The notes beneath the pieces are model-generated. The model was given only the letters and a program-made list of their open reading frames with translations. It had not been told where the DNA came from and searched no databases. From an uncultured Bacillota bacterium (GTDB lineage Bacteria > Bacillota > Sulfobacillia > UBA995 > UBA9673): a DNA stretch of 17,148 nt. Positions 7,152 through 15,978 of this stretch are shown here, one piece after another; the first letter of the stretch is position 1, and each line of letters opens with the position of its first letter. A program made the translations under genes and the position numbers. Location: positions 1 to 17,148 of the forward strand of contig CALMHV010000006.1 of assembly GCA_937863905.1 (NCBI GenBank), in the 5' to 3' direction.

Positions 7152-8093
7152 CTAGCCGGGCTGCCCGCACTCGGCGCCCCGCCCGGTCAGGATCTCCAGG
7201 CCGTGGCCGAGGGCCGGCTTGATGGCCTCCAGGCTCTCGCTCACGCCTTTCGGGCTGCCGGGTAGGTTGATGATGAGCGTCCGGGCGCGGATGACGGCCA
7301 CGCCCCGGCCGAGCATGGCCCGCGGTGTCTTGGCCAGCCCGGCGGCTCGCATCGCCTCGGGCAGACCGGGAACCAGGCGATGGGCCACGTTCAGAGTGGC
7401 CTCGGGCGTCACATCGCGCGGGGAGAACCCGGTGCCCCCGGTGGTCAGGACGAGGTCGACCCGGCCCTCGTCAGCCCAGGCCGCGAGTTTGGCGGCGATG
7501 GCGTCGCGCTCGTCCGGGAGGACGGCGTGGTCGACCACCGGCCAGCCGAGTTCGTCCTCGACGATCCGGCGGACGGTCTCCCCGCTCACGTCCTCGCGTT
7601 CGCCGCGGGAGCCCTTGTCGCTCGCCGTGAGAATAGCCACCCGGAAGACCCCGACCAGCCCTCGGATAGGGTCGCCGACCGCGACCGGGCCGCCCCGGAG
7701 GACCCGGGCGAAGATGCCCTCGCGCGGCATGACGCAATCGCCGGCCTGGTAGAAGATAGCGCAGCGGGTGTGGCACTCCTTGCCGATCTGGGTGACCTCC
7801 AGGAGGGGCGGGGGGGATTGGCCGCCGACCGCGAGCAGGCTTCCTATAGGAAGGCTCGGAAGGTCCAGGCCCCGCGTGGTCAGGTTCTCGGCGAAGTCCC
7901 CGGGGCCGACGTCAAGTCCCTTGGCCCGCATCTTGTCGATGCTCTCGATGGCCAGCAGGCTCACCTGGCGATGCCAGTCGCCGGCGTGGGCGTCACCCTC
8001 AAGCCCGTGGCCGAGCACGAGGACGCCCCGGTCCACGTTTCGCTTGCGGGTTCCCTTCTCGGAGCTGACACAGACGGCTTCGATGCGGTTCAT
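7152..8093 (-). CDS. MOSC domain - MoaB/MogA fusion protein (Mo cofactor)
   Basis: The 313-residue protein joins two cofactor domains. Residues 1-148 form a MOSC domain (sulfur-carrier domain of the molybdenum cofactor sulfurase type), with [18 protein letters not shown] near the start and Cys107, Cys111 and Cys120 in the segment [14 protein letters not shown]. Residues 149-313 are a MoaB/MogA domain, the molybdopterin adenylyltransferase fold, with [28 protein letters not shown] (217-227) and NLPGSPKG (276-283). It would activate molybdopterin as MPT-AMP for MoeA, with the MOSC part perhaps handling sulfur or cofactor. The ATG overlaps the moaC stop (ATGA). An upstream in-frame extension of 14 residues lies within moaC and was not used. 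It is the last gene of the operon; no clear terminator was seen in the 40 bases after it. Confidence 0.92.
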
Positions 8094-8695
8094 GCCCTGG
8101 CCCCCTTCGGCTCCGGTTCTCCTTCTCTTGTCCACGTCCCGCTCTTCCCGCCTGATTTCCGGACCAGGCGGAGCGAGTCGATGACCATCCCGCGATCGAT
8201 CGACTTGGCCATGTCGTAGATGGTCAGGGCGGCTACGGCGCAGGCCGTGAGAGCCTCCATCTCCGCCCCGGTGCGTCCGGTGAGCCTTACCCTGGCCTCT
8301 ATCTCGAGGGCGGCGTCGGCGGGCGGCTGGAGGAGCAGGGCAGGCCGGGGTCGGCCATCTCCATCCGGCGCCCCGGTCGACGGCCCGGCCAAGGACCGGA
8401 ACGAGACCTCGACCGCGGACAGGGCCAGGGGATGACAGAGCGGGATGAGGTCGGCGGTCCGCTTGGCGGCCTGGATGCCGGCCACCCGCGCGACCGCGAG
8501 CGCGTCACCCTTCTCCAGGCCGCCCGCCAGGAGACGCTCGGCCGTGGCCGGAGCCATCAGCACCCGGCAGCGCGCCACGGCTTCCCGAACGGTCTCGGGT
8601 TTTGCCCCGACGTCGACCATGCGGGCCTGACCCTCCGGGTCAAGATGCGTCAGGCTCGAGCGTTCCGGGTCCGGGTCTGGACGGTGAGCGCTCAT
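8090..8695 (-). CDS. moaC: Cyclic pyranopterin monophosphate synthase MoaC
   Basis: MoaC converts the 3',8-cyclo-GTP intermediate made by MoaA into cPMP, the first stable pterin of the pathway. The 201-residue product shows the family order [15 protein letters not shown] (15-29), [15 protein letters not shown] (76-90, with the conserved Lys and His), [13 protein letters not shown] (140-152) and [14 protein letters not shown] (159-172, with the catalytic Asp/Lys). It is longer than the usual 155-165 residues because of a polar N-terminal tail, a Pro/Gly-rich insert at about 101-126 and a charged C-terminal tail. The ATG lies six bases after the moaA stop, and the stop overlaps the next gene's ATG. 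Confidence 0.96.
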
Positions 8696-8701
8696 TTCCG
8701 G

Positions 8702-9778
8702 TCAGCCCCCGATCTTGGACATCTGGCGCTTGGAAAGCTCCGGACGGCGTTCGGCCATCCGGTGGGCCTGAGGTTTCATCTCCACAGCCTGGGCCAGAAG
8801 GGCGGCGAGTTCGGCCTGAGGGGCGCCCGCCCGGAGCGGCCCGGCCAGGTCGATAGCGAAGGGCGAGGCCAGGCAAGGGTGGACCTGGCCGTCGGAGGTG
8901 AGGCGCAAGCGGTTGCAGGACGCACAGAAACCGTGGGTCATGGGGCTGATGACGCCCACGTGGCCCCGGCCGAGACGGAAGTACCGGGCCGGGCCGGCCC
9001 CGTACGGCCCGCGGCCCCCGCCGGTTTGCTCCCCGGCGCCGCTGGTCTCCTCAAAGGGCAGACCCCGGACGCCGGCCAGCCTCGCCAGACGCTCGGCAAT
9101 CTCGCCGGCCGGGACAAGGGCCGTCTCGCCCCAGACCCGCCCCTGCCCCAGGGGCATGAGTTCGATGAACCGCCAGATGAGGGCCGGTCCCAGGGAAGCG
9201 AGACGCCCGGCCGCCTGTCCGATGCCGGCCGCCTGTCCGATGCCGGCCGCCAGGAGGGCCATGTCCTCGACCTCGTCGTCGTTGAGGCCCCGGATGACCA
9301 CGGTGTTGACCTTGACCGGGGCGAAGCCCGCGGCCAGGGCGGCCTCCAGACCAACCCAGGCCTCCCGGAAATGGTCCGTCCTCGTTATCTCCCGGTAACG
9401 GTCGGGACGCAGCGTGTCGAAGGAGATGTTGACCCGCTTGACCCCGGCCGCGCGAAGGGGCCCGCTCAGGCCGGCCAGGAGGACCCCGTTCGTGGTCAGG
9501 GAGAGGTCGTCGAGGCCGGGCACGGCGGCCAGACCCCGGGCGAGGTCGACGATGCCGCGCCGGACCAGGGGCTCTCCCCCGGTGAGGCGCACCGACCGGA
9601 CCCCCAGGGTAACGGCGGCCCTGACCACCCGCTCTATCTCCTCGAAGCTCAGGATATCCCGGTGGGCCTTGAGGGGAACGCCCTCGGCCGGCATGCAGTA
9701 CACGCACCGCTGGTTGCAGCGGTCGGTGACCGACACCCGGAGATACGAGACCTTGGCCAGGCTGTGTCTTGCCGTCAT
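8702..9778 (-). CDS. moaA: GTP 3',8-cyclase MoaA (radical SAM)
   Basis: MoaA is the radical SAM enzyme that starts molybdopterin synthesis from GTP. The 358-residue product has the SAM-cluster cysteines C21-x3-C25-x2-C28 (CNQRCVYC), LTGGEPLVR, NISFDTL and VKVNTVVIRG. It also has the second cluster motif near the C-terminus (FCASCNRLRLTSDG then PCLAS). The usual double-Gly end is present as IGG. I chose the ATG at 9776-9778, which overlaps the stop of the upstream gene (ATGA). A long upstream open frame lies within that gene and is not coding. Relative to typical MoaA there is an insert before RFIELMPLGQ, made partly by an 18-base tandem duplication. Confidence 0.96.
   Translation of the reverse strand: MTARHSLAKVSYLRVSVTDRCNQRCVYCMPAEGVPLKAHRDILSFEEIERVVRAAVTLGVRSVRLTGGEPLVRRGIVDLARGLAAVPGLDDLSLTTNGVLLAGLSGPLRAAGVKRVNISFDTLRPDRYREITRTDHFREAWVGLEAALAAGFAPVKVNTVVIRGLNDDEVEDMALLAAGIGQAAGIGQAAGRLASLGPALIWRFIELMPLGQGRVWGETALVPAGEIAERLARLAGVRGLPFEETSGAGEQTGGGRGPYGAGPARYFRLGRGHVGVISPMTHGFCASCNRLRLTSDGQVHPCLASPFAIDLAGPLRAGAPQAELAALLAQAVEMKPQAHRMAERRPELSKRQMSKIGG
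9209..9251. repeat. 18-bp tandem duplication inside moaA
   Basis: Two identical adjacent 18-base units (GGCCGCCTGTCCGATGCC, 9209-9226 and 9227-9244) are followed by seven bases of a third copy. The unit length is a multiple of three, so moaA stays in frame and the protein reads GIGQAAGIGQAAG. It sits in a loop before the RFIELMPLG strand, where length variation should be tolerated. Confidence 0.9.
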
Positions 9779-11793
9779 AACGTCACTTCTTTCCCCGTGT
9801 CCCTGAGGTCGTAGCCGCCCAGCGACATGGCCGCCCCGCGGAACTCCGGGTCGCCGGCCAGTATCTCGCGGAGAAGGACCAGCCGCGGGTCGGCGTCGAG
9901 TTCCGGCAGGAAGGCAAGGTCGTACCTCTCCTCGGCCACCGGCACGAACTCGAGCCCGAGGGCCCCGGCCGCGGCCTGGAGGCCCAGTCCCGCGTCGGCC
10001 GCCCCGGAGGCCACGGCCGAGGCCACGCCCAGGTGCGAACCCTCTTCCCGGTCGTAGCCGGTGATGTCCGTAGCCTTTAGACCGCCCCGCCGCAGGAGGT
10101 AGTCGAGAAGCACCCGCGTTCCCGAACCCCTCTGCCGGTTGATGAAGACGACCCCGGGACGGAAGAGGTCCTCGAGGCCCCCGATCTTCTTGGGGTTCCC
10201 CGGACGGAGGATGAGCCCCTGCTGCCGCCAGGCGAGAGTCAGCAGGCGAACCTGGCGCCCGGGCAGCAGCCGGCGGACCCACGAAGCGTTGTACTCGCCG
10301 GTCTCCTCGTCCAAGAGGTGGGTGCCGGCCAGATGGCACAGACCGTCGCGCAGGGCCAGAAGGCCTCCCGTGCTCCCGACGCGCCCGGTGGAGAGCGCAA
10401 GGGATGGGTCGCGGGCGGCGAGCCGCGAGGAGAGCAGGTCCAGGAGGAGATCATGGCTTCCGGTCACGAGAAGGGCGCGGTCGATGGCCGCCCGGGGGCG
10501 GATGAGGGTCACGGTGACCGTCTCCCCGGCGTCGAGCCCCTCGCGCGAGGCCGGGACCAGGACCGTCCCGTCCGCCTGGGACAGGGCCGAAAGCAGACCG
10601 GCGCCGCGGGGCAGGGGGACGGCGATGTGGCGGGCGGGGTCACCGGCCTCCGCGCGGCCACCGGCGACCGCGCGGCCGATGAGACCGACCTTGACCCGGA
10701 CGAACTCATCAACCCCGATGGGCGACGGGATGGACCGCCCGAGACGGGCCGCCAATCGCTCAGGCTCGGGCGGCGCCTGTCCCTGCCAGGCGAAGATGAG
10801 CGGCCGGACGAAAAGGTCGAGGGCGAGGGCCGACGACACGGGATAACCGGGGAGCCCGATGACGGGCTTGGCTAAAGACGCCGCCCCGGCCAGCCGCGCC
10901 ACGCCGAGGACGACCGGCTTCCCCGGGCGCACGGCCACCCCGTGCACGGCGACCTGACCTCGCTCGGCGATGACACGGGCGGTGAAGTCGCCGCGCCCGG
11001 CGGACGAGCCGGCCCCGATGAGGACCAGGTCCGACGTGGCCAGGGCCCGGTCCAAGGCCTCGCCGATGAGGCGCGGGTCGTCGGGAACCGGGGGCAGCAG
11101 ATGAACGGTGGCGCCCCAACTCTCCAGGGCGAGGCGGGCCACCGTCCCGTTGGTCTCGATGATCTGCCCGGGCCTGGGGCGGTCGGCGAGAGGGCTGACG
11201 ACCTCATCGCCCGTCGGGATGAAGGTCACGACCGGGCGGCGCCAGACCTTGATCGTCCTCACGCCCGCGGCGAGCAGGAGTCCGGCGTCGGCCGGACCAA
11301 GCCGATGGTTCTGGCCGAAGAGGACCTGGCCGGCCACGATGTCCTCGCCCTGGACCCTGACGTGCTGCCAGGGATGGAGGGCGGCCTGGAGTTCAATGGT
11401 CGCCTCGACCAGGATGGCGTCCTCGAGGGGGACCACGGCATCGCACCCCGCGGGGAGAAGGTCGCCGGTGTCGATGCGGATAGCTGTCGGGGCAGCGGGA
11501 GGCTCGGCGCCGCCCGCGCCGCCCGCGCCGGGAACGCCTCCGGCGACCGGCAGCCGCACCGGAGTCCGCTCCGCCGCCCCGTAGGTGTCGACGGCCCGGA
11601 GGGCGTAGCCGTCCATGGCCGCGGCGTGGTAGTGCGGCGAGGAGAGTTCCGCTAGAACGAGGCCGGCCGTGACCCGCCCGCAGGTCGTCTCCGAAGCGAC
11701 CTCCTCGGCCCCGAGCGGCCTTGAGTCCACCAGAGCGGCAAAGCGCGAGCAGGCCTGGGGGAGCGGTGTGGCCTCAACGTATATCTTAGACAA
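9775..11793 (-). CDS. moeA: MoeA fused to a periplasmic-binding-protein-like domain
   Basis: The 672-residue protein has a full MoeA part (about 1-433): AAAMDGYALRA (57-67), FIPTGDEVVS (191-200), an AGSSAGRGDF segment and VIGLPGYPVSSALALD. MoeA inserts molybdate or tungstate into adenylated molybdopterin. Residues about 434-672 are a PBP-like (LysR/ModA-type substrate-binding) domain, with GSTGGLLALRDGLCHLAGTH, LLDEETGEYN, NRQRGSGTRVLLDYLL and EEGSHLGVASAVASGAADAG. This fusion is known in anaerobic Firmicutes and archaea; the second domain may bind the metal oxyanion, which is an inference. The start is TTG at 11791-11793 with a GAGGTG ribosome site. It overlaps the end of the preceding moeA by eight bases and the following moaA by four. 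A second, shorter MoeA lies immediately upstream. Confidence 0.93.
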   Translation of the reverse strand: MSKIYVEATPLPQACSRFAALVDSRPLGAEEVASETTCGRVTAGLVLAELSSPHYHAAAMDGYALRAVDTYGAAERTPVRLPVAGGVPGAGGAGGAEPPAAPTAIRIDTGDLLPAGCDAVVPLEDAILVEATIELQAALHPWQHVRVQGEDIVAGQVLFGQNHRLGPADAGLLLAAGVRTIKVWRRPVVTFIPTGDEVVSPLADRPRPGQIIETNGTVARLALESWGATVHLLPPVPDDPRLIGEALDRALATSDLVLIGAGSSAGRGDFTARVIAERGQVAVHGVAVRPGKPVVLGVARLAGAASLAKPVIGLPGYPVSSALALDLFVRPLIFAWQGQAPPEPERLAARLGRSIPSPIGVDEFVRVKVGLIGRAVAGGRAEAGDPARHIAVPLPRGAGLLSALSQADGTVLVPASREGLDAGETVTVTLIRPRAAIDRALLVTGSHDLLLDLLSSRLAARDPSLALSTGRVGSTGGLLALRDGLCHLAGTHLLDEETGEYNASWVRRLLPGRQVRLLTLAWRQQGLILRPGNPKKIGGLEDLFRPGVVFINRQRGSGTRVLLDYLLRRGGLKATDITGYDREEGSHLGVASAVASGAADAGLGLQAAAGALGLEFVPVAEERYDLAFLPELDADPRLVLLREILAGDPEFRGAAMSLGGYDLRDTGKEVTL

Positions 11794-13114
11794 GAGGGAT
11801 CACCTCGACCAGGGCTCCGGCCTCCAGCCCCCGGCGCCCGACGGGGATGTGGACCAGCCCGTCCGCGTGCGCGAGCATGGTGATGAGACCGGACTTACCC
11901 GGGACGGGCTCGGCCAGAAGACCGCCGGCCGAAGCGTCCTTGGACCAGAAAAGGTGAACGCAAAGGTATTCGTCGCGGCCTTGGTCGGACGAGACGGCCG
12001 TGGCCAGACGGGCGGTGAGGGCGGGCTGGGCGGTCTCTTCGAGACTGGCCGCTTCCCACGCCGGCAGGGTCTCGCCGCCGGCAATCCGCAGGGCGAGCCG
12101 GGCCAGCAGGCTGTAGACGACCAGCCCGGACACGGGGTGGCCCGGCAGACCGAAGACAGGCGCCCGGCGGGGGCCGCAGAGGCCGTAGATGGTGGGCTTG
12201 CCGGGCTTGAGAGCCAGCCCGTGGAAGAGGACGCCGGGCGGCCCCAGTTCAGCGATGACCGCGGCCGTATGGTCGCGGGCGCCGACCGAACTGCCGCCCA
12301 GGATGAGCACGAGGTCGGCGGGGCGGTCGCCCGCCGCGCCTCCGGCCCCGAGGGCGGAGGAGACCGCCTCGGCCAGGGCCTCCTTGCGGTCGGGGACGAT
12401 GTCCGTCACGCGGACCTCTCCCCCATCGCGCTCGATGAGGGCGGCCAGGGCCACCGAGGTGATGTCCCGCACCTGGCCGATGCCGCAGGACGGGCTGGCG
12501 GCCGGGATGATCTCATCCCCGGTCGGGATGACGACCACAAGCGGCGAGCGGCGGCAGGCCACCTCGCGGACCCCCACCGCGGCCAGGACGCCCAGGTCGG
12601 CCGGGGTGAGGCGGCGTCCGGCAACCAGGACTTCCGTCCCACGGCCGACGTCCTCGCCGGTCCGGACCACGTTCTCGCCCGGCGCGGCCGGGCGCGAGAC
12701 CTCGACCAGGCCGGACCCAGGGGTGACGGCGTGCTCGATCATGACCACGGCGTCGGCGCCGGCCGGGAGCATCCCGCCCGTGGGAACGGAGACCGCCTGC
12801 CCGGGCCCGACGGCGAGACCGGCCTCCTGGCCCATGGGCACCTGGCCGGCTTCGAACAGGAGGCACGGCGCGCTCTCGCCCGCCCCGAAAGTGTCGGCGG
12901 CCCGCACGGCGTACCCGTCGACCGTGGAGCGGTCAAAGCCCGGGACGTCCTCGGCGGCCAGGACGGAGGCGGCCAGGACACGGCCGGCCGCGCGGGCGGT
13001 CGGCACGACCTCCGCCGGGGAGGGGCCCCCCCTGACGGGTCCCTCCCCGGACGCGGCGGGTCCGGTCCGGGGCGGAAGCAGGCTCTCCAGGACCAAGCGC
13101 TTGGCCCGGCCCAA
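11786..13114 (-). CDS. moeA: Molybdopterin molybdenumtransferase MoeA
   Basis: This is a stand-alone MoeA of about 442 residues. It shows GFDRSTVDGYAVRA (Val where many MoeA have Met), VPTGGMLPAGADAVVMIEH, VVIPTGDEII, LILGGSSVGARDHT and VFGLPGHPVSGLVV, and it ends in the C-terminal beta domain. It would insert the metal into MPT-AMP together with, or as an alternative to, the longer MoeA fusion encoded next. The start is uncertain: the frame has no ATG or GTG in the right place. I chose the TTG at 13112-13114, 23 bases after the tupC stop. A CTG at 13139-13141 or an ATT at 13118-13120 would restore the family-typical start (IISLGRAKRLVLE). The open frame reaching upstream lies inside tupC and is not coding. 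Confidence 0.92.
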   Translation of the reverse strand: MGRAKRLVLESLLPPRTGPAASGEGPVRGGPSPAEVVPTARAAGRVLAASVLAAEDVPGFDRSTVDGYAVRAADTFGAGESAPCLLFEAGQVPMGQEAGLAVGPGQAVSVPTGGMLPAGADAVVMIEHAVTPGSGLVEVSRPAAPGENVVRTGEDVGRGTEVLVAGRRLTPADLGVLAAVGVREVACRRSPLVVVIPTGDEIIPAASPSCGIGQVRDITSVALAALIERDGGEVRVTDIVPDRKEALAEAVSSALGAGGAAGDRPADLVLILGGSSVGARDHTAAVIAELGPPGVLFHGLALKPGKPTIYGLCGPRRAPVFGLPGHPVSGLVVYSLLARLALRIAGGETLPAWEAASLEETAQPALTARLATAVSSDQGRDEYLCVHLFWSKDASAGGLLAEPVPGKSGLITMLAHADGLVHIPVGRRGLEAGALVEVIPLV

Positions 13115-13137
13115 AGAAATGATGTCTCGGTACCCGA

Positions 13138-13929
13138 TCAGAAGACCATTTCCCCTTCCACGAAAGCTTTCGTCCGGGGATCCGCCGGCCGCCCGAAGAC
13201 ATCGCGGGTCGGCCCGGCCTCGACTAGTCTTCCCGCCACGAGAAGACCGGTCCTTCCAGCGATACGTCTGGCCTGGAACAAGTTGTGGGTCACGAGGAGA
13301 ATCGCCGGGCGCCAGTCGCTCCCGCCGGCGGCCGCGACAAGGGCCCGCTCGATGATCCCGACGTTGGCCGGGTCGAGGTTGGCTGTCGGCTCGTCCAGGA
13401 GAAGGACCTCCGGCCTGATCACGAAGGCCCGGGCCACCGCGACGCGCTGGGCCTCGCCCGCCGAGAGGGAACGGCACGAGGTTAAGGCGAGGGCCCCGAG
13501 CCCAAGGTCGTCGAGGACCCGGGTCACGGCCGCTTCCGCTCCGGGGCCGGCGCGGCCACGGAGTTCGAGCCCCAGGACCACGTTGTCGCGCACGCTGCCC
13601 GTGAAGAGAACGGGGTTCTGGGAGACGAAGGCCAGCCCGCGACGCCAGGAGAGGAGATCGCCCGGAGAGGGGCCCACGGCGGGGGGACTCGCCGCCCACG
13701 TCGCGTCTTTGAACCGGACCTCGCCCGCGCTCGGCCTTTCCAGGGTCGCCAGGAGGCGGAGAAGGGTCGTCTTGCCCGACCCGCTCGGACCCATGAGGGC
13801 CAGGATCTCGCCCCGGTGGAGGGCGATCTCCCCCACGTCCAGCACGGTGCGTTCGCCGTAGGAACGCCGGAGGCCGGTCGCCGTCATGACCGGCGAGGCA
13901 GCCTCCGAGAGGGATGTCCTGGCCTTCAT
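13138..13929 (-). CDS. tupC: Tungstate ABC transporter ATP-binding protein
   Basis: TupC powers uptake by the permease TupB. The 263-residue ATPase has Walker A GPSGSGKT (47-54), a Q-loop Gln104 in SQNPVLF, the signature LSAGEAQR (155-162, Ala for the usual first Gly), Walker B LLLDEP (176-181) and the switch His215 in LLVTHN. No C-terminal Mop domain is present, unlike many ModC proteins, which fits a Tup-type rather than Mod-type transporter. The ATG overlaps the tupB stop (ATGA) and follows a GGAGG ribosome site by seven bases. An internal ATG at residue 15 is a weaker alternative. Confidence 0.92.
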   Translation of the reverse strand: MKARTSLSEAASPVMTATGLRRSYGERTVLDVGEIALHRGEILALMGPSGSGKTTLLRLLATLERPSAGEVRFKDATWAASPPAVGPSPGDLLSWRRGLAFVSQNPVLFTGSVRDNVVLGLELRGRAGPGAEAAVTRVLDDLGLGALALTSCRSLSAGEAQRVAVARAFVIRPEVLLLDEPTANLDPANVGIIERALVAAAGGSDWRPAILLVTHNLFQARRIAGRTGLLVAGRLVEAGPTRDVFGRPADPRTKAFVEGEMVF

Positions 13930-14591
13930 CGTCCGCCCTCCTTCCCGACCTGCAGCCGGTGGACGTAGGAGTTGATGGCAAAGCCGATGACCAGGAGCAC
14001 CGCGCCCAGGACCAGAGCGTCGCCGAAGTTGCCCCGCCTCGTCTCCAGGAGGATGGCCGTCGTCATGACCCGCGTCTCGCCGCGGATATTGCCCCCGACG
14101 AGCATCACCGCCCCCACCTCGGCGGTGGCCCGGCCGAGACCGGCGACGATGGCCGAGAACACGGCCGGACGGGCCTCCCGCACGACCAGAAGGCGCGTCT
14201 GCCGGGGCGTCGCGCCGAGAGCCACGGCCGTCTCGCGGTACCGCCGGTCGCGTTCCTCCACGGCCACGGCCACGAGCCCGGTGATGATGGGCGTGACCAG
14301 GACCCACTGGGCGATGATCATGGCCGCCGGGGTGAAAAGGAGGTTCAGGCTCCCGAAGGGGCCCTGTTTGGAGATGGCGATGTAGACCAGGAGCCCCGCC
14401 ACGGTCGGGGGCAGCCCCATGAGGGTATAGAGGACGCGCAAGACGACGGCCCGGCCCCGGAACCGGGAAAGCCCGAGCGCCGTCCCCAGCGGCACCGCCG
14501 CCGCCGCCGCGAGGAGAACGGCCGTCCCCGACACGGCCAGGGACAGGAGGATGATGCCTCCTAGTTCAGACCAGGAGCTGACCCCGAACAA
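13926..14591 (-). CDS. tupB: Tungstate ABC transporter permease
   Basis: This 221-residue integral membrane protein has about five hydrophobic segments, including residues about 11-38, 50-72, 85-105 and 194-211. It carries the permease loop region (ETAVALGATPRQTRLLVVREARP), which contacts the ATPase, and GLGRATAEVGAVMLVGGNI, as in TupB-type permeases. It would move tungstate from TupA across the membrane. The start is TTG at 14589-14591, eight bases after GGGGAGG. It follows tupA by 23 bases and overlaps tupC by four. Confidence 0.92.
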   Translation of the reverse strand: MFGVSSWSELGGIILLSLAVSGTAVLLAAAAAVPLGTALGLSRFRGRAVVLRVLYTLMGLPPTVAGLLVYIAISKQGPFGSLNLLFTPAAMIIAQWVLVTPIITGLVAVAVEERDRRYRETAVALGATPRQTRLLVVREARPAVFSAIVAGLGRATAEVGAVMLVGGNIRGETRVMTTAILLETRRGNFGDALVLGAVLLVIGFAINSYVHRLQVGKEGGR

Positions 14592-14614: not shown

Positions 14615-15460
14615 CTACGGCAGCAGCCAGAAGAGCGGCTGGCCGTACTTATCCGCGCCGAAGGTGCTGATGATCTGGCGGGCCTCCTCGGAGGCGAGGT
14701 AGGCCGTGAAGGCCTCCGCCAGCTTTCCGTTGACGTTCGGGTGCGACACCGGGTCCACGATGATGACCGCGTACGGGTTGTAGAGGTCCTGGCCGCCCTC
14801 GAAGACGACGGCCAACTCGCCCTGACCGTAGCGGGCAAGATAGGTGGCCCGGTCGGTCAGGGTGTACCCGCCCTGTTCCGCGGTCATCCGGAGCGTGTCC
14901 CCCATGCCGGCGCCGACTTCCTGGTACCAGGCGCCCTCGGTAGCGAGGCTGAACTTGGCCCAGAGGCCCTTCTCCTTCTTGTCCGTGCCGGAGTCGTCGC
15001 CGCGCGAGAGGAAGACGGCCTTGCCCTCGGCTCCGGCCGCGCTGATGGCCACAAACAGGCTCTGGATGTCCGGCTTTCCCCGCAGGGCCAGCGGGTCGTT
15101 AGGCGGGCCGACCACGATGAAGTCGTTGTACATGAGGGGCGTCCGCGAGAGGCCGTGTCCCTCGGCCATGAAGGTCTGCTCGGCCGCGGGCGAATGCACC
15201 AGGAGGACATCGGCGTCGCCGTTCCGGCCAAGCTCCAGGGCCTGGCCGCTCCCGACGGCCACCACGTCGACCTTGCCTTTGTTGGCCGCCTCGAACGGCG
15301 GCAGGAGGACATCAAGCAGCCCGGAGTCGTAGGTGCTCGTCGTCGTGGCCAGGGTGAGCGTGCGCGCGTCGTCCCAACGGTTATGGACGTAGAAGCCGCC
15401 CCAGCCAAGCAGGCCGAGGACGGCGAGGCCGGCGAGGACGATGCCGACTCGTCTGGTCAT
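14615..15460 (-). CDS. tupA: Tungstate-binding protein TupA
   Basis: TupA captures tungstate outside the membrane for TupBC. The 281-residue product has a basic start and a hydrophobic stretch (5-25). It then carries the TupA signature TTTSTYDSGLLD (39-50), AVGSGQALELGRNGDADVLL and LMYNDFIVVGP, which are diagnostic of the Tup family rather than ModA. The hydrophobic stretch has no cysteine lipobox, so it is either cleaved as a normal signal or kept as an N-terminal anchor. The ATG at 15458-15460 follows GGAGAGGGG; the frame upstream of it is inside the leader of the gene and shows no similarity. The specificity (tungstate over molybdate) is inferred from the family. Confidence 0.94.
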   Translation of the reverse strand: MTRRVGIVLAGLAVLGLLGWGGFYVHNRWDDARTLTLATTTSTYDSGLLDVLLPPFEAANKGKVDVVAVGSGQALELGRNGDADVLLVHSPAAEQTFMAEGHGLSRTPLMYNDFIVVGPPNDPLALRGKPDIQSLFVAISAAGAEGKAVFLSRGDDSGTDKKEKGLWAKFSLATEGAWYQEVGAGMGDTLRMTAEQGGYTLTDRATYLARYGQGELAVVFEGGQDLYNPYAVIIVDPVSHPNVNGKLAEAFTAYLASEEARQIISTFGADKYGQPLFWLLP

Positions 15461-15498: not shown

Positions 15499-15723
15499 CT
15501 ACGACTTCCGCGACCGCCGCCCGAAACACCCGAGCTGGCAGGCGACGATCTTGACCCCCAGCCGGTCGCAGGCTTCGCCAACGGCCTGGGGGCGGCAGCC
15601 CAGCCGCTCACAGAGGGCCAGGGCCTGGGCGCAGGCTATCGAGCCGTCCCTGGCCTCGGCCAGAAGAGCGTCGCCAAGAGTCTTCTCGCGGTCGTTCCCC
15701 TTCGCGTTCGGGTGGTCGGTCAC
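15499..15723 (-). CDS. Small cysteine-rich conserved protein, first gene of the operon
   Basis: The 74-residue product has a strong AAAGGAGGT ribosome site nine bases before a GTG start, so it is very likely translated. It has six cysteines (31, 38, 43, 52, 62, 66). The part CAQALALCERLGCRPQAVGE then DRLGVKIVACQLGCFG reads as two short helices followed by a CxxxC end. I recall similar sequences among short Firmicutes hypothetical proteins but cannot name a characterised family. No signal peptide or membrane segment is present. It stands directly after the riboswitch/terminator leader and 38 bases before tupA, so it is co-regulated with tungstate uptake and cofactor synthesis. A metal or Fe-S binding or regulatory role is only a guess. 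Confidence 0.75.
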   Translation of the reverse strand: MTDHPNAKGNDREKTLGDALLAEARDGSIACAQALALCERLGCRPQAVGEACDRLGVKIVACQLGCFGRRSRKS

Positions 15724-15759
15724 GGCCAGGCGACCTCCTTTCCGGCCAGCCAGACAGGC

Positions 15760-15788
15760 AAAAGCCGGCGCCCGTGGGGAGCGCCGGC
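15760..15788 (-). terminator. Intrinsic terminator in the operon leader
   Basis: On the minus strand GCCGGCGC (15788-15781) pairs with GCGCCGGC (15771-15764) over a nine-base loop, which can close by two further pairs, and is followed by TTTT (15763-15760). It lies between the structured leader RNA and the first gene's ribosome site, so it looks like the expression platform of a transcription-attenuating riboswitch rather than the end of a gene. Confidence 0.75.
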
Positions 15789-15816
15789 CAGGGACACGTT
15801 TGGCCCTGCTGGCTGG

Positions 15817-15955
15817 GCGGCTCCTTTCCGAATACGGGAGGCGCTCCGGTTTCCCGGGGCACCCTTGTCCGACGGCTGTCCCGCCGGAGCCGGCCAGGAG
15901 CCACGACCCAGCGCCGACTGCGGGCTGGGCCAGGGAGGCTCACTGGCTCGGAGCG
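15817..15955 (-). promoter_or_regulatory. Structured leader RNA, candidate Moco/Tuco riboswitch
   Basis: The leader before the Tup/Moco operon folds on paper into several helices. GUGGCUCC (15904-15897) pairs with GGAGCCGC (15824-15817). CCCAGC..CCG with CGG..GCUGGG forms a nine-pair hairpin (15929-15907). GGUGCCCCGG (15863-15854) pairs with CCGGAGCGCC (15849-15840), one mismatch, under a GAAA tetraloop. CCG-UAUU-CGG lies just before AAAGGAG. A GNRA-capped arm is a known feature of the Moco RNA class, and these RNAs sit before molybdenum and tungsten cofactor and transport operons. GCUCC at 15954-15950 could also close against GGAGC, so the outer helix is not settled. A terminator follows at 15760-15788. 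The class is assigned from context and structure only; the ligand (Moco or Tuco) is unknown. Confidence 0.68.
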
Positions 15956-15978
15956 CTTGGTTCCTCTATCTGTGTGGC

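Follow-up and report, generated by a model that had tools for sequence, protein, structure and literature searches.

A Moco/Tuco-class riboswitch with a P3 stem heads, and most likely turns off, a tungstate-uptake and cofactor-synthesis operon

The leader described here, on the minus strand of a 17,148-nucleotide stretch of DNA from an uncultured Bacillota bacterium (the window), is a genuine Moco/Tuco-class riboswitch, a member of an already known class, and it most likely turns off the tungstate-uptake and cofactor-synthesis operon behind it. We put the probability that it works in cis as an OFF switch of this class, by premature transcription termination, at about 0.8. When the cofactor is scarce, positions 15824-15809 would pair with the 5' side of the terminator (15791-15778), and with the terminator blocked transcription would read through into a small ORF, tupABC, moeA, a moeA/PBP fusion, moaA, moaC and MOSC/mogA. 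When the cofactor is bound, P1 would be locked, the terminator arm freed and the terminator formed, stopping metal uptake and pterin synthesis. The operon encodes metal uptake and pterin steps, on which the cofactor would feed back. We infer both ligand binding and the direction of regulation, and the metal of the pterin would be molybdenum, tungsten or both. The main interest lies in a P3 stem that shows no link to tungstate context across the taxonomic class, and in an unnamed protein family associated with moeA and tupA.

Scanning the window against Rfam with cmscan gave a minus-strand match to RF01055 (Moco/Tuco RNA) of 45.8 bits (E 2.7e-8), above the gathering score of 36. A Moco/Tuco riboswitch had been proposed from the sequence alone, with an Infernal search of this strand as the check, and the covariance model bears the proposal out. 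Rfam's own alignment spans 15912-15808, and the match is the single one to RF01055 in its assembly, which comprises 1.94 Mb in 452 contigs at 93% completeness. Two further matches in the window, NiCo-like (19 bits) and sR38 (17.7 bits), were dismissed as chance. None of 200 dinucleotide shuffles folds as stably as the 241-nt leader (z -4.07).

The unconstrained fold of 15956-15760 (-114.7 kcal/mol) consists of a five-stem aptamer (15817-15956), which the RF01055 model and two same-family relatives (L028 and L030) also support, followed by the terminator. In P1, the 5' strand GCGCTCC (15950-15956), identical in L028 and L030, pairs with 15824-15817, so that the 3' strand ends at 15817, where the sequence-only reading had placed the end of the closing helix. 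P2 (15893-15947) is built of GCCAG/CTGGC, GAGCC/GGCTC and a distal hairpin; in L030 the partner of GAGCC is GGTTC, which preserves the pairing. P3 (15868-15888) is a stem of 8 bp (15888-15881/15875-15868) with the loop GACAG and a z of -2.6 against shuffles. P4 (15839-15864, strands 15864-15854/15849-15839), closed by a GAAA tetraloop at 15853-15850, and P5 (15828-15837) are found by both the covariance model and the fold. The mutually consistent helices seen earlier in the sequence, including the one capped by GAAA, are thus present in the unconstrained fold, and the RNA has P1, P2, P4 with its GNRA loop and P5 around the conserved junction. In RF01055 RNAs, P2 carries a tetraloop receptor, CCTAAG/TATGG; at that position the window reads CCTCCC and CGTGG, a partial likeness by eye.

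The leaders of the same-family genomes G002 (L028) and G003 (L030) start with GCGCTCCGAGCCAGTGAGCC, which in the window lies at 15956-15937, upstream of Rfam's match, and includes the family consensus CUCCGAGC. Rfam's match begins too far 3'. Its placement of P1, P2 and P3 in the window was rejected, as it forces P3 into a stem of three pairs whose loop is a single nucleotide, a reading on which the window RNA would pass as the P3-lacking 'Tuco' type. The limits given from the sequence alone, 15760-15955, fit the re-anchored aptamer and terminator better than Rfam's alignment does. Among the three same-family RNAs compared (L001, L028 and L030), RF01055 was mis-anchored in two, those of the window and L030; mis-anchoring of this kind would mislabel P3 in automatic surveys.

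The RNA thus resembles the Moco RNA motif RF01055 in its five-stem layout, the GAAA tetraloop of P4, the conserved CCTCCCGTNTTNGGAAAGGAG, the terminator platform and the Moco biosynthesis operon, and differs in that the Rfam model begins in the wrong strand and in that a P3-bearing RNA stands immediately upstream of tup genes. A score of 45.8 bits is among the lower matches in the class list, as might be expected of a degenerate RNA that has lost ligand binding. This explanation is very improbable, since the low score accompanies Rfam's mis-anchoring and the conserved CTCCGAGC, the GAAA loop, CCTCCCGTAT and GGAAAGGAG are all intact.

The intrinsic terminator (15760-15788) has a 10-bp stem (15788-15779/15773-15764), the loop CCCAC and TTTT at 15763-15760, where the U-tract is short (TTTTG). 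A simple consensus scan of the window found no terminator (0.9 expected) and missed this one, whereas a purpose-built scan and folding both detect it, in agreement with the terminator and TTTT reported earlier behind the aptamer. The purpose-built scan, applied to 73 of the 74 RNAs of the class (that of G021, which has no anchor, was left out), detected a terminator after 40 of them, where shuffles predict 7.1. Mismatch-free terminator stems of differing sequence are present in all three same-family leaders (window, G002 and G003), and G002 and G003 retain the RNA, the terminator and the tup operon despite these differences. A palindrome just 5' of the leader, CTGATA-N5-TATCAG at 15995-15979, is a possible operator.

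We propose that the switching strand is the P1 3' strand with its flank (GGAGCCGCCCAGCCAG, 15809-15824). Its predicted partner is the terminator 5' side (15778-15791), which holds a second GCGCTCC at 15784-15778; because the same heptamer stands at 15956-15950, the P1 3' strand can use either partner. GCGCTCC recurs repeatedly across this G+C-rich window, with three copies on the minus strand and five on the other. For nascent RNA that ends at the terminator loop, the lowest-energy structure is the antiterminator (-104.7 kcal/mol; 15824-15820/15782-15778, 15818-15816/15785-15783 and 15813-15809/15791-15787), in which the 5' side of the terminator is occupied. Forcing P1 gives -101.2 kcal/mol, and holding the P1 5' strand wholly free gives -100.7 kcal/mol. 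In this model the antiterminator is favoured over P1 by 3.5 kcal/mol, a difference that ligand binding might reverse.

Across 40 loci of the class, the P1 3' strand pairs better with the terminator 5' arm of its own locus than with swapped arms (mean -13.01 against -11.78 kcal/mol permuted; p 0.0014 in 20,000 permutations that ignore the kinship of loci). The 3' arm of the terminator gave no such own-pair effect in the 40 loci (p 0.237). In the window the duplex reaches -20.8 kcal/mol and ranks 2 among 40 partner arms. The own duplex is better than the swapped mean in just 24 of the 40 loci, so that the class average is carried by a subset. Within the family the antiterminator duplex is weaker in G002 (rank 18 of 40) and G003 (rank 12 of 40). 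For their full leaders, the best fold compares with the canonical P1 fold at -120.6 against -118.3 kcal/mol in G002 and -138.8 against -136.2 in G003. In nascent G003 RNA the P1 fold (-121.9) falls short of the best one (-122.9) by no more than 1.0 and improves by 3.3 on the fold with the P1 5' strand free. Furthermore, the whole 241-nt leader of the window, including the ribosome binding site, favours a different fold, this being a very G+C-rich RNA with many alternatives.

The sequence-only reading had offered another switching pair, between CCAGCCAG (15816-15809) and CTGGCTGG (15753-15746). Both elements are located where it put them, together bounding 15746-15816, and the first does take part in the predicted antiterminator (15813-15809/15787-15791). 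The second was rejected as the switching partner: it lies beyond the U-tract and is made only after it, so the outer pair is not part of the termination decision, and in a fold of 15816-15720 the two elements pair alongside the terminator, with which their pairing is therefore compatible. By eye, a comparable 7-base outer match exists in L028 and is missing from L030, the two same-family leaders inspected. After readthrough the outer pair could matter for the ribosome binding site AAAGGAGGT (15733-15741) before the small ORF, just 5' of which CTGGCTGG sits. That proximity, together with the lowest-energy fold of the 241-nt leader, which pairs 15952-15934 with 15738-15720 and covers the ribosome binding site and start, would suit an RNA that chiefly controls how the small ORF is translated, masking this site, instead of acting through termination. 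We consider such a mode improbable, given that each of the three same-family leaders carries a mismatch-free terminator stem behind the aptamer and ahead of its first ORF, and given the class-wide excess of terminators, and we prefer control by termination.

Behind the leader, and likewise on the minus strand, lies the tungstate/cofactor operon that had been recognised in the sequence, and profile matches identify both its tup-like and its moe/moa genes. The first ORF (15499-15723, 74 aa) belongs to a C...CQLGCF family. It is followed by a tupA-like gene for a tungstate/molybdate binding protein (14615-15460; PF12849 at 1e-42), for which the ATG at 15460 was chosen as start over the mechanical ORF beginning at 15529, a tupB-like permease gene (13926-14591) and an ABC ATPase gene in the tupC position (13138-13929). 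TupA and TupB are the best NCBIfam equivalog names, well ahead of Mod (ModB reaches 86.9 bits where NF041773 TupB reaches 145.2), but the scores fall below the curated cut-offs (206.1 of 400 bits for NF041772 TupA, 145.2 of 320 for TupB), and we treat the transporter as a putative TupABC. A plasmid search with TupA added nothing. The cofactor genes comprise moeA (11786-13138, start approximate; MoeA_N, MoCF_biosynth and MoeA_C domains), a moeA fused to a PBP-like domain (9775-11793; NF011068, 672 bits, above cut-off), moaA (8702-9778; TIGR02666, 310.5 bits, above cut-off) and, from profile matches, moaC (8090-8695) and a MOSC-MogA fusion (7152-8135).

In Regulski 2008 (PMC2408646), RNAs containing P3 are reported to go with Moco, those lacking it mostly with Tuco, and homologues of tupA and tupB serve as a marker of tungsten use; how a single RNA class could discriminate Moco from Tuco is left there as a correlation. 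Among the open-licence papers listed in our literature searches, titles and opening abstract lines contain no later test of the rule. The earlier suggestion of a tungsten-cofactor ligand was to be judged by P3, and the window RNA, with its P3 of 8 bp, falls into the Moco type by the 2008 rule. P3 is likewise present, as long stems, in G002 and G003. The RNA shares with the P3-lacking 'Tuco' variants a tungstate-transporter, AOR-rich context and differs from them in bearing P3.

We surveyed 74 RF01055 matches from 50 of 154 genomes of the class, with about 6 kb downstream of each, less at contig ends. The state of P3 was called by folding, for a few RNAs by eye, with P2 ends chosen by folding; operon types were entered in a table by hand, and AOR genes were detected with two AOR reference proteins. 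A degenerate RNA before a tupA piece (G046:C141) was left out. Among the remaining 73 RNAs, 40 have P3. Those heading tup operons number 19, 13 with P3 and 6 without (Fisher p 0.19 against all others, kinship ignored), and two of the 13 operons start with tupB (G046:C107 and G020:C301). All four RNAs assigned to mod or MOT1 genes have P3, one of the 'mod' assignments (G032:C108) resting on a modA match about 1 kb downstream, and 20 of the 33 P3-lacking RNAs head 'other' genes, with no reference match or only ABC ATPases and similar. P3 does not mark tungstate context in this class, and so the P3 test does not decide the ligand; the 2008 rule on ligands is not thereby disproved. RNAs with P3 before tup genes provide natural test pairs; among the genomes concerned, G022 and G042 hold both RNA forms, and in G035 and G045 the tup and moeA RNAs both have P3.

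Several loci of the survey are unusual in other ways. Three RNAs of one family (L186, L193 and L197) have P3 segments of 102-106 nt and head moaA operons; tupABC-like genes lie further downstream of L186 and L197, and L193 stops at a contig edge. RF01055 RNAs stand in tandem, about 105-120 bases apart, at L061 (G024:C59) and L161 (G027:C212). Six RNAs without P3 (L159, L162, L163, L067, L166 and L161) head genes for PF00174-like lipoproteins, ECF-type (PF09819) membrane proteins and ABC ATPases, Pfam having been run on three proteins of these loci; an ECF transporter is possibly under Moco/Wco control there.

A tungsten-cofactor context is present around the leader, with the tup operon and four AFOR_C (AOR-family) matches in the genome, against two PF00384 and one MoCoBD_1. 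Among Mo importers, which also include WtpA, MOT1 and Mol, the search covered ModA (TIGR01256); it was found in none of eight genomes, the bacterium's own and seven of its family and order, and 11 of 14 controls were positive. These genome matches, the lack of ModA and the tup genes at the head of the operon favour the tungsten cofactor as the specific ligand, in which case the RNA would be a Tuco riboswitch in spite of its P3, a reading that we hold tentatively, at somewhat less than even odds. It is weakened by the P3 stem, tied to Moco in Regulski 2008 (PMC2408646), and by the MoCoBD_1 protein of the genome. AOR homologues turned up in E. coli in the control search as well, and AOR counts therefore do not fix the metal. 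MoCoBD_1 proteins usually use Mo. With no ModA in the genomes searched in the order, TupABC may also take up molybdate and serve as the entry for both metals; the ligand would then be Moco, as P3 predicts, and the P3 rule would be unbroken. We hold this reading to be a little less probable than the first. The P3 of the window RNA, the P3 of the four mod/MOT1-assigned RNAs, and G022 and G042, where the P3-lacking RNA precedes tup and the P3-bearing one a small ORF and moeA, are consistent with it; G035 and G045 speak against it, as do G002 and G003, which combine seven AOR-family matches each and no MoCoBD_1 with their long P3 stems.

The small CQLGCF protein belongs to an unnamed family tied to moeA and tupA. 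Counted by recognised genes, it immediately precedes moeA or tupA at 21 of 21 loci of the class; in the phylum it precedes moeA at 24 of the best 27 further loci, and 142 of 398 sampled genomes have homologues (E <= 0.001). Wherever listings gave a descriptive name, it was 'hypothetical' or 'uncharacterized'. The protein had no sequence match in Pfam and NCBIfam and no fold match at E <= 0.001, a helix-turn-helix fold is weakly supported, and among the open-licence papers listed in our searches titles and opening abstract lines do not describe it. Small helix-turn-helix proteins of the FeoC type occur in iron uptake operons; the family resembles them in size, metal-uptake setting, a possible helix-turn-helix core and cysteines, and differs in that the helix-turn-helix is weakly supported and Pfam and NCBIfam gave no match. 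None of 80 named TupA loci, searched for the small protein alone, has a homologue and the RNA and tup genes of G003 stand without the small ORF, which argues against a general link between the small protein and tup.

At tup- or moe-headed operons of the class, the small ORF goes with 13 of 28 P3-bearing RNAs and 0 of 10 without P3. RNAs matching RF01055 accompany 12 of the 27 small-ORF loci sampled from the phylum, and they were read as six with P3 and six without (two of the latter calls had no P2 found, and one, L268, has a 13-nt unpaired gap); the idea that the small ORF accompanies P3-bearing RNAs was therefore rejected. We regard as doubtful, though worth stating, the joint reading that P3 is not a metal selector and that the CQLGCF protein serves the metal cofactor as an additional sensor or as an assembly factor, an HTH-like protein whose three invariant cysteines would bind metal, Fe-S or dithiolene and which would act alongside MoeA in operons often controlled by the RNA. 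For Mo/W cofactor biology, the conserved small gene next to moeA represents a concrete gap still to be filled. Behind the cofactor operon of the window, groES- and groEL-like ORFs were recognised by eye at 7033-5016, and likewise by eye behind the small-ORF homologue at L251.
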